64,000 bases of DNA from Spiroplasma sp. NBRC 100390 (GTDB lineage Bacteria > Bacillota_I > Bacilli_A > Mycoplasmatales > Mycoplasmataceae), in NCBI RefSeq assembly GCF_001886495.1, contig NZ_CP018022.1, positions 62,001-126,000 on the forward strand, written 5' to 3'. Below are positions 16,824 through 23,614 of the stretch, piece after piece. The notes beneath the pieces are model-generated. The model had not been told where the DNA came from, did no database searches, and saw nothing but the letters and a program-made list of their open reading frames with translations. The stretch's first letter is position 1; every line of letters starts with the position of its first letter. The position numbers and the translations under genes were made by a program.

Positions 16824-16840
16824 TAAAAATGGAGGCACTA

Positions 16841-17998
16841 ATGAATTTCACGAGTTATAGTTTTGGTGGATGAAAGGGGCCATGAGGTTTTTTTGACCCT
16901 TTAGGTAGTCAATGAGCACAACCCAAGGGACCTGTTACTTTTGGGATTGAATTTGGAATTGGTTTAAGTATGGTTGTTGTTTTATTATTAATAGTGTTTT
17001 TGTTGCCAAAGTTTAATGCTAAGTTAGCAGCAAAAAACGCCTTTCGTTATGGTCTGGGTAGTTATTTAATTTTTGCGTGATTAATTTTTTGATTGTTAAA
17101 AGTTATTTATTATTATAAAGTTATTCCAGGTTTAATGTTTAATGATAATAATATCTTAATTAATGGTTTAGAATATGGACAAAATAATATTGTAGAATAT
17201 CAAGGTCAATTATATGCGCATTTTTTTGACACTGGAACTGTTGATCGTTTGCACTTACCAATTTACAAAGCTTGAGTTAAACTCAGATTAGTTAGTCCGG
17301 GTGTTTATGAAACAATTTCTAGTGGTTCAACAATTCGTGCCGATAATTGAACGGATGCTGTACCATTAGAGTTATGTAAATGATTAAATTTAATTTATGG
17401 AATCTTATTATTGTGTCCGCAAAATAATAAAGTAACTAGAAGGTTGTATTCATATTATGCGCCGTGGGGAGTGTGATTACCAATCTTGGCATTAGTTTTT
17501 CCACCAGATGCTTATACTTTTGGGAATTATTATTATTGAGCGCATTATGGGAATCACGCTTTAATTATTGCTGTTTGTTGGTGAATGCATCTTTATGGAA
17601 CACCAAGTTATGATAAAAAACAAATTTTAGGAAGTTTAATAATGTTTTTAATATATGCTCTAACTGCATTCCTATTTTCAGCAGTTTTAAATGAGAATTT
17701 TCAATATATGGGTAAAGGTGGTTGAAGTTTTGGTGGCACTAATGTTCGTGATTGACTGGGTGGTTATCCATCTCAAATTATCCCGTTATTTACTTTAGGG
17801 GCATTGGGAACAATTAGCGGTCATTTAATGCTAAATGCTTGTGGACAGTGGTATCAAGTTAACTTTAATAACCATACAGCACAATTAATTCGAACAAAGA
17901 ACAATAAATTGGGGTTTTCAAAAGATGAATGAACATATCGTAATTTACTAAGTAATCAATTATACCAAAAATACCGTTCAAAAAAAATAAAAAAATAA
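16841..17998 (+). CDS. YwaF/TMEM164-like integral membrane protein
   Basis: 385 aa, at least six hydrophobic segments and very rich in Trp, most coded by TGA. The ATG at 16841 follows ATGGAGGCACTA. Features resembling the YwaF (TIGR02206/TMEM164) family are VPLELC before a membrane segment near residue 180, NYYYWAHYGNH near 230, and FSAVLNENFQYMG near 290. The match is by pattern only. The C-terminus ends with a short basic stretch, and the last codons lie inside the terminator stem. Confidence 0.55.
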
Positions 17999-19909: not shown

Positions 19910-22900
19910 ATGGAAAAAATTAAAGTATCATTTTTAGAAAAAAAAGGAATTTTAAAAGAATTCTTATATCAAGATGTTGCTGTCAAAGCGGGGGATGATA
20001 TCGCCCTGATTGAAAGCGACAATGGTGAAGCTATTATTAAAGCCCCAATGGATGGAGTCATTGTTAAACCAATTAAAGCCGGCAGCAAAATTAAGAAAAA
20101 TGCTGTTATTGCTCATTTATTAACAACAGAAGCTGAAATTGAAAAATATTATTTTAAACATCTTGAAAGTGATGAATTTAGTCATTTAGATAAAAAGGGT
20201 GTTACATTTACAACAACAAAAAATGGTGAATTTGGAACAAAATGAAAAGAAATAGAAGAGGATGATTATTCTGGTGCTGATTTTATTAAACCAAATACTT
20301 TAAATCCCGCTTTTACACCACCATTATTAGATCAACAACAAGGACAAAGTAGCGGTAGACCAATGCAACCTATGGCCAATGAAATGAATATTAATTCTAA
20401 AGCAGAGCTAATTAATGAACAACCTTTTCTAAATGAAAGTTTAAGACAAGGCTTTGAACAAAATAATTTAAGTCAATCATTATCAGAAGGAATGGAATTT
20501 AATCAACCAGGACAAAATATTAATAATTCTAATTTAATTGCGAATAATTTTGCACAATCACAAAATAATATGGGTCAACAAGGGCAAGATTTTGGTTCTA
20601 ATGCAACTGTTCAAACAACACCAGCAAGTGAACAAGAAACAGTTTTAGAAACTAAACCAACTGAAATCAAAAGATGAGATGAAACAGAGCTAACATTTGG
20701 CCCTAAAAAAACTCGTCGACTTTCTTTTAAAGATTTAAAAATTGATGATGATCATATTATTAATAACCGTGCGAAAATTCCTTCAATTGATACAATTAAA
20801 CAACCGACTAATCAAAATGTGAAGAGTGGAGGAGATAATACGATGGTTAATATGCCTAATATAAATGATGTTATGAAAGAAAATAACTTTGATTCATCAG
20901 TTAGCAGTTTTGGTGTCAATACACAATCAACTGGGCAAAATATTATTGCTAATGCTGTTCCAATTGGGCAAAAAAAATTAGAAGAAGAAAATCAAGCAAA
21001 AGAATATGCTAAGTATTTAGTAAATGAAACAAAACAGCAAGATGAAATGCCAGCTAATGCAGCAGTTCTTTTTGGGGGTCAAGCGGAGAATAGTAGTTTT
21101 CGTAATCTTGTGAATCAACGTCGTCAACAGTTACATAATAAAAATGATTTTCATGAATTGTCATTAGAAAGTGATAATTCAAAAAATTCAATGGATTTTT
21201 TAGATGAAGATGGGCGACCAAAAATTTTACGTAATATTGTGCAAGGAAGGATGAATGATTTAATTAAAAGGAATGCAACCCCAGAAATGTTAAGTAGTCA
21301 TGGTGGAAGTAGCGCTTATGGTTATGACCAACCGGATTATCGTGCTAAGGATGAAGACTTATCTGATGAAGTTTATATTTCAGCTGATGGCTATACGATT
21401 GACCCTAAGGACTCGGAAAAGGCAACTCCGAAAAAACCAGGTTATTTTTCACCTTTAAAATCTTATCGTGATCGTTTGTATGAAAAATTAAATGATGGGG
21501 GACAACGTGAAAAAATTTTAAAAACAAGAAACCAACGCGAATTAATTAAAAAAAGAATGGAACAAATTGCAAAAGGGAATGTTGAAGTTGATTCAGTATT
21601 AGGGGAAATTAATAATTATCGTCGTCCTTCTTTTGAAGAAATTGAATCACAATACGAAATGTTGGATAATGAATATTATGGTAATGAGAATCAGCCAGAT
21701 CAATCATCAACAAATTATCAACAAGATTCTGCTATTCAAAATAAAAACCAACCACCATATGGACAGGTAAACTTTGATGGAAAACAGGGAACAGTTACTG
21801 TACCGCCAATCACAAATAACTATCAGTGTCCACCAGTTCAACAATCAACAAGTGATAATAACATGCTTGTTGAGTTAGCTGTTTTAAAAGAAAAACTATC
21901 AAATCAAGAACAAAATAATCGTCAAAATGAATTGCTACGTGAAATCCAAGGTTTACGAGAAGCAAATAATAATATGAATCAAAACAATAATACTAACAAC
22001 TTGGATAAAATGATGCAATATATGTTAGTACAACAAATGTTAAAAACAATGAACGAACCAGATCCAATGGTAAAAGAAATGCTGAAAGAATTTAATTTAA
22101 ATAATAAACAAATTCTTAACCAAGGAATTGAAAATACTTCTAATGGTAATAACTTACAAGTTAAAAAGTTTAATAACGAAACAAGTTCAATTCCCAATAC
22201 TTATGGAAATTTAGTTCAACCATTAAACAATAATTTAAATATTGTTAATACGAATAGTAATATTGAACCACAAGGATTAGAAACAAGAGAAGAAATTAAA
22301 GCGACAAGATATCCAGCTATTCAATCAATGATTATGTCACAAACGCATGTACCACCATTAACAATTAATGCTGAAATTGATATGTCTTCAATTATTGATC
22401 AACAACGAAAATTGAAAAACGCTAATACGGAGTCTGGTGTTCGTTTTTCAACAATGAGTTTTCTTGTTAAAGCTGTTTCATTAGCATTAAGTGAGTATCC
22501 AAAATTAAATTCATATTATGATTCAAAAACAAATCAAATTGTTATTAAAAATTCACAACATATTGGTTTAGCAACAGAAACTAGTGAAGGTTTAGTTATT
22601 CCAGTTATTAAGTTTGCAGAACGAATGAGTTTAAAACAAATTGCAATTAATATTCAAGAAACAATTGAACGTTTACGTCAAGGTGAATTATATGATTATG
22701 AATTACAAGGAAGTACGATTACAATTGCAAACTATGGGACTGTCGGTGCTGTTAATGCGACACCAACGATTTTTTATCCAAACTCAGCGGTAATTGGAAT
22801 TGGTCGAATTGTTCGTAAGCCAGTTGTTATTAAAGGTGATAAGTTAGTAATTCGTTCAATGATGAACATTGCTTTAACAGTTGATCAACGAATTATTGAT

Positions 22901-22975
22901 GCAGCTGAAGCGGGAATTTTCTTAACACGTTTAAAAGAAATTTTGGAATCACCAGAATTAATTACTTTATCATAA
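19910..22975 (+). CDS. E2-like (dihydrolipoamide acyltransferase-related) pseudoenzyme
   Basis: 1,021 aa in one frame with two TGA(Trp) codons. Residues ~1-75 have a lipoyl/biotinyl fold pattern, but the lipoyl motif ETDKA reads ESDNG, with Asn38 in place of the modified Lys. Residues ~80-790 form a long Gln/Asn-rich, low-complexity linker with some coiled-coil-like segments. Residues ~795-1021 are a full-length E2 catalytic domain (GLATETSEGLVIPVI, STITIANYG). Its active-site DHRxxDG reads DQRIIDA, with Gln993 in place of the catalytic His. It looks like a PDH E2 paralogue kept for structure, not catalysis. Ribosome site is weak. Single-gene unit. Confidence 0.85.
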
Positions 22976-23010
22976 AAAAATCTTATTAATATTTATTAAT
23001 AAGATTTTTT
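22975..23010. terminator. bidirectional terminator
   Basis: 10-bp stem TCTTATTAAT/ATTAATAAGA flanked by A6 and T6, between two convergent genes; the - strand gene's stop lies in its T-run. Confidence 0.9.
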
Positions 23011-23614
23011 AATTCTTTAAAATTTTATAACTATATATTATTCCTTTAATAATTAAATTATCTAATTCGATTAAAACACTGTTGTTACGATCGATGATTA
23101 TAGTAAAAATTAAGTCACCACGATAAATTAGTCTAGATACAATATTGATTTCATATTTGTCTAAAAGTTCTCGTACGAATACTTCGTTCAGTGGGCGTAA
23201 TAAAATTCCAATTTTAATTTGTTCATTTATTTTTTCTAATTGGGCGGAAGTTAAAATAATACGGGTGATGGTTGCATACCCATTCTTAATTCAGTCTTCG
23301 GGTAAATTATAAATGGGATTATAATACCGATGAACTAAGACAATAATATTTGTTAAATTTTTGTCAATAATGTTTTCCAAAATAGTTTTTCCAGCGATAT
23401 GTCGCACTTCACCATTATCAGTTTTATAAATATTTTCACGTCTACTGCCAATGACATATGCATATGCGTTATGGTTTGCCTTTTTATTTTTATACTTTTT
23501 TAAGAAGTTAATAACATCTGTCTCTGTTTGAACGTAACTAGCGAAACAAAGGAATTTAACATTTTGAATTATTAGTTCTTTAGTTAAAATTTTGTTCTTT
23601 TTAATTATATACAT
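23009..23614 (-). CDS. YigZ/IMPACT-family protein, divergent
   Basis: 201 aa on the - strand, stop complement of 23009-23011. The IMPACT N-domain pattern is present: FASYVQTETD, then HNAYAYVIG, DNGEVRHIAGKTILE, and NIIVLVHRYYNP. The Gly-rich K-L-G-x-G-G-L segment that normally follows is replaced by YNLPEDWIKNGYAT. The C-terminal ferredoxin-like half is present. The family is linked to translation control, though the bacterial role is unclear. No strong ribosome site precedes the ATG, so the start is uncertain. Confidence 0.75.

Follow-up and report, generated by a model that had tools for sequence, protein, structure and literature searches.

The window, i.e., the whole stretch of 64,000 nucleotides that was analysed, carries on its forward strand a gene for a large protein with the architecture of a 2-oxoacid dehydrogenase E2 subunit and a replaced active site. 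The open reading frame starts with ATG and, under genetic code 4, contains two TGA codons read as Trp. The protein and its orthologues are referred to below as family A, and the following features were assigned to the locus, with the basis of each assignment in brackets.

19910..22975, + strand: coding sequence of the pseudo-E2 (family A), 1021 aa (ORF call, Pfam, intact orthologues)
19910..20125, + strand: lipoyl-like beta-barrel domain, residues 1-72 (Pfam match below cut-off, AlphaFold2, dN/dS)
20021..20023, + strand: Asn38, at the position of the lipoylated Lys (codon AAT, direct reading)
20165..22279, + strand: linker of 705 residues (86-790), mostly disordered (conservation, AlphaFold2, composition)
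21095..21274, + strand: conserved two-helix motif, residues 396-455, FRxL[VI]xxR ... GRPxI[ML]RNI[IV]xxR (alignment, AlphaFold2)
21857..22117, + strand: conserved long helix or putative coiled coil with the MMQYMLxQ motif, residues 650-736 (alignment, AlphaFold2)
22280..22969, + strand: core with the E2 acyltransferase fold, residues 791-1020 (Pfam, Foldseek)
22727..22729, + strand: Ala940, at the position of the oxyanion-stabilising Ser/Thr (alignment to catalytic E2s)
22886..22888, + strand: Gln993, at the position of the catalytic His (codon CAA, direct reading)
22978..23012, + strand: inverted repeat followed by a T run, probable terminator at the transcript end of the gene (direct reading)

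The domain layout originally proposed for this protein, in which a very long linker joins a lipoyl-like domain, here degenerate, to a complete E2 acyltransferase domain, was confirmed by Pfam HMMs and AlphaFold2. The C-terminal domain matches 2-oxoacid_dh at residues 791-1019 (E 6e-66), and a Foldseek search with its AlphaFold2 model returned solved E2 catalytic domains as the closest folds (1b5s, E 5e-23). At the N-terminus, the Biotin_lipoyl match (residues 24-69, E 0.0014) lies under the curated cut-off, and AlphaFold2, run as a monomer with 41 orthologues, predicts a beta barrel with a pLDDT of ~77. The E3-binding (peripheral-subunit-binding) domain PF02817 was found by Pfam in none of 41 family A members; true PdhC matches it at E 7e-13. 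The C-terminal sequence PE[LI]xT[LV]S, the would-be inter-trimer anchor, is kept in most A orthologues. Both substitutions on which the original prediction rested, Asn38 for the lipoylated Lys and Gln993 for the catalytic His, are plain in the codons, and alignment to catalytic E2s reveals a third lost active-site residue, the Ser/Thr responsible for stabilising the tetrahedral intermediate, replaced by Ala940. Despite the loss of His and Ser/Thr, D992, R994 and D997 are still present; the roles of the His, the Ser, the adjoining D-R salt bridge and the following Asp have been described for the E. coli E2 (PMC8421416).

The linker is mostly disordered in the AlphaFold2 model but contains conserved helical islands, the strongest of which (residues 396-455) consists of two predicted helices and is kept in all genera, including the divergent genus g10; elsewhere in the source genome this motif has no counterpart, making it unique to A. 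The helix at residues 650-688, together with the MMQYMLxQ segment that follows, is conserved outside g10. A prion-like function of the linker, suggested at the outset by its Gln/Asn-richness, was rejected, as composition varies among orthologues: Asn and Gln together make up 22% of the linker in the source protein and 10-23% among orthologues, and other genera have charge-rich linkers instead.

The surroundings of the gene are variable. In most genomes of the source genus (g1), a MATE-family gene precedes A and no particular gene consistently follows it; in much of g8, A is found near pta-ackA. Directly after A and on the same strand, a gene termed F1 (420-470 aa) occurs in g4, g6, g8, g9 and one g10 genome (G051), for example at L072:2620-4047 and L067:9861-11138 and in their relatives; in G030 it is split or multiplied away from A. 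For F1, neither Pfam nor PHROG gave a convincing family, and no convincing structural match was obtained with the beta fold predicted for it. It was considered as an operon partner of A and rejected, being absent from g1. Elsewhere in the window, 16829-17998 encodes a multi-pass membrane protein with a Pfam TMEM164 match (E 2e-16), a family named for a eukaryotic protein.

Among 60 genomes of the source family, A is present in 42, comprising 40 full orthologues and two strongly diverged copies in g10 that do not contain the lipoyl domain; a class-wide scan of 100 genomes yielded no member outside the source family. The original prediction proposed to check whether both replacements are conserved, and this proved true of one of them. 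All 40 full orthologues have Gln in place of the catalytic His, the two g10 copies having Gln or Arg, and the oxyanion Ser/Thr is Ala in 37 of the 40 and Ser in the remaining three. The lipoyl Lys site is mostly Asp or Asn, but five of the 40 carry Lys (three in g9 by alignment column, G014 and G026 by a one-column shift judged by eye), so that loss of the Lys is not strict, and a strict loss of lipoylation cannot be claimed for these five. On a tree of the core domain, all A sequences group together (support 98), apart from every PdhC of the family, which indicates a single old duplication. Family PdhC (90) and a further group of E2 relatives, B (100), each form one clade as well; the deeper joins are unsure owing to long branches, above all those of B.

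The source genome contains three PF00198 genes on its 1.2 Mb chromosome, namely pdhC, A and B. The separate catalytic E2 that the original prediction presupposed is the true pdhC, located at G000:C1:295.8 kb in an lplA-pdhA-pdhB-pdhC-pdhD run and encoding an intact lipoyl Lys, E3-binding domain and DHR motif with its His. Family B, represented by a 751-aa gene outside the window (287261-289516 of G000:C1; L004:7262-9517), adjoins this run a few kb upstream and has neither the catalytic His nor the Ser/Thr, thus constituting a second dead E2 family; by our own count, the one Lys that it has close to the lipoyl site misses the expected register by one position. B is present in all helical genera except g10, where it was not found, and is decayed in G024. 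The B linker is His-rich, and B is fast-evolving.

The distribution of A coincides exactly with that of the helical cytoskeleton: Fib, true MreBs and A occur in the same 42 genomes. True MreBs (E ~1e-128) are confined to g1, g4, g5, g6, g8, g9 and g10, and the weaker matches of the MreB search in other genera (1e-19 to 1e-61) are probably DnaK relatives. In G048 (C1:366301-367833) and G036 (C1:424287-425815), fib is interrupted and not missing (one TAA; two frames), for which sequencing error is possible. Because the genomes lacking A form one clade on the rpoB tree (support 99), the co-loss of A, Fib and MreB happened once, and co-occurrence alone is therefore weak evidence. A less confounded sign may be the joint divergence of A and Fib in g10. 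Core identity of A to the source genome is 33% in g10 and 56-61% in the other genera, and that of Fib is 34-42% and 65-70%, respectively, whereas PdhC of g10 stands at 48%, the usual between-genera value. Across 21 genomes, A identities correlate with those of Fib at r = 0.985 and with those of PdhC at 0.909, the points not being independent.

Published inventories of the cytoskeleton place limits on such a role. For S. eriocheiris, the list of 16 proteins from the Triton-insoluble cytoskeleton has no member close to 1000 aa (PMC5289999), and the isolated ribbon, with five bands or six proteins, contains none of A's size (PMC9582952); both lists cover visible gel bands only, and they suggest that A is no abundant ribbon part. 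In addition, MreBs confer helicity on non-spiroplasma cells (PMC9663586, PMC9710875), from which it follows that A is not required for helicity as such; the dumbbell is absent from these reconstructions (PMC9663586). If A belongs to the helical cytoskeleton, it would be a minor or polar part. The docking on the cytoskeleton raised in the original prediction is suggested by the phylogenetic profile, and it is plausible that A serves the helical cytoskeleton.

The strongest challenge comes from the possibility that A is a lineage-specific protein unrelated to helicity, for example a scaffold of the envelope, division or secretion, which was lost together with fib and mreB in one gene-losing ancestor. 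The single co-loss event, the location of the A gene away from the mreB and fib loci and its absence from the published cytoskeletal fractions would all agree with this, but the retention of A wherever Fib and MreB occur (42 genomes), and the joint acceleration of A and Fib in g10, which PdhC does not share, make it unlikely.

A second alternative is that A is a ligand-sensing pseudoenzyme, in which the CoA/lipoamide channel would report the level of acetyl-CoA or CoA to the motility or cell-cycle machinery. This would fit the persistence of the channel neighbours D992, R994, D997 and N941, which vary little or not at all in spite of the lost catalysis, the retention of 36 of the 62 columns conserved among E2s, and the pta-ackA neighbourhood in g8. 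Fold stability alone, however, predicts equal conservation, and we consider a sensor distinctly unlikely.

In part of the source genus, PDH itself has been lost. When 14 genomes of g1 were searched at the DNA level with the entire lplA-pdhABCD stretch, nine gave a full or almost full copy. The stretch is absent from G021 and G024, remnants persist in G017 (two pieces) and in G020 (its first 1.66 kb), and the copy in G025 is broken. This agrees with the PF00198 search, in which PdhC was missing in G017, G020, G021 and G024 and interrupted by stops in G025. In all five, A retains an open frame of 985-997 aa, and between G024 and G025 the A core has a dN/dS of 0.06 at a dS of 0.37. On the rpoB tree, the PDH-intact G018 and G015 fall between G024 and the other genomes that lost PDH, so that the loss occurred at least twice. 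Since A is intact where lplA-pdhABCD is deleted or broken, a role in docking on PDH cannot be its only selected function. A function depending on lipoylation was also discarded as unlikely, lplA being gone as well in G021 and G024 and the Lys being mostly absent. As a separate observation on PdhC, that of L023 (G038, g8) groups with PdhC of the non-helical g7 at ~0.07 changes per site, which may reflect horizontal transfer.

These results bear on a third alternative, that A is a structural subunit assembled together with the true E2 into the PDH core, where it would act as a tether. The precedent is E3BP (protein X), a catalytically inactive homologue of E2 that stands in for it in the core (PMC9681731), most genomes with A do have a true PDH, and the pta-ackA genes that A adjoins in g8 belong to the same pathway. 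Nevertheless, A has outlived PDH in at least two lineages, which refutes this as its sole function; it has no E3-binding domain; and relatives possessing PdhC but neither Fib nor MreB do not have A (16 of the 18 genomes without A have a PF00198 match, which is PdhC). Such a subunit role is accordingly quite improbable, the docking on the PDH complex envisaged in the original prediction is not supported as its function, and the conclusion that A is free of PDH and does not work as one of its subunits is well supported.

Selection on A is strong. For the same five closest pairs, the dN/dS of the core is 0.016-0.022 in A versus 0.022-0.072 in PdhC, and over a shared set of 20 genomes, 85 core columns are invariant in A and 45 in PdhC. 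Constraint extends to the lipoyl-like domain, which has a dN/dS of ~0.1 in the pairs nearest to the source genome. These values indicate that A is selected for its fold and is not decaying, as had been claimed from the source sequence. The active-site residues are gone, but a decaying or annotation-artefact gene can be dismissed, given that each of the 40 full orthologues has an open frame of ~860-1075 aa, one of them interrupted by a single frame break. That break (L066, G042) lies between the lipoyl domain and the rest and represents decay or a sequencing error. The view of A as an ancient, catalytically dead paralogue of E2 with a single origin is, on these sequence comparisons, well supported.

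Considering all of these lines of evidence, the reading we favour is that A is a dead E2 paralogue recruited as a structural hub, either a trimer or a cage, probably for the helical cytoskeleton or the cell pole, with a rough probability of 0.55; that it acts as a scaffold of some kind is likely. E2 cores form trimers, which mostly assemble into 24- or 60-mers. By analogy, the E2-fold cores of A, modelled here as a monomer, would associate into trimers and perhaps further into a cage, whose long arms would offer partners the two-helix motif, the coiled coil and the lipoyl-like barrel. Such a hub may serve the helical cell body, for instance as an anchor or ordering element of the ribbon or the cell pole, and would be present in low copy without being a main ribbon component. 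A more specific version, in which an E2-derived, long-armed cage or lattice is a low-abundance organiser of the Spiroplasma pole or ribbon (e.g., the dumbbell core) with B as its partner, is rather unlikely as stated; if true, it would mean that a metabolic enzyme core has been turned into a cytoskeletal organiser.

No description of a Spiroplasma pseudo-E2 was found in the literature, and A is apparently a real, conserved and undescribed pseudoenzyme family. The dead E2 subunits known to us are parts of a dehydrogenase complex. The favoured reading, by contrast, would make A, which has outlived its complex and is conserved above the living enzyme, a clean case of the passage from enzyme core to scaffold in a near-minimal cell. 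A also adds one gene to the short list, Fib and MreB1-5, that is common to all helical spiroplasmas.

Compared with the PDH E2 of Gram-positive bacteria (Bacillus stearothermophilus, 1b5s), A has the same core fold, with 34% identity over 240 columns, and likewise places a lipoyl-like domain first and the core last; it differs in the replaced catalytic His, oxyanion Ser/Thr and lipoyl Lys, in having no E3-binding domain, in persisting where E1 and E3 are gone, and in a linker of 700 residues with conserved helices of its own. A resembles E3BP (PDHX) of the eukaryotic PDH in being an E2 homologue that is non-catalytic and whose linker is longer (PMC9681731). Unlike E3BP, A has no E3-binding domain, is not tied to PDH, and occurs in wall-less bacteria, where it arose by duplication of a bacterial E2. 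The third comparison is with Fib of Spiroplasma itself, a protein of nucleosidase ancestry that belongs to the cytoskeleton and is a main component of the ribbon. The fold of Fib differs from that of A, and A is unreported in the ribbon of which Fib is a main part, but both would represent an enzyme fold turned structural, and both are found in the same 42 genomes.
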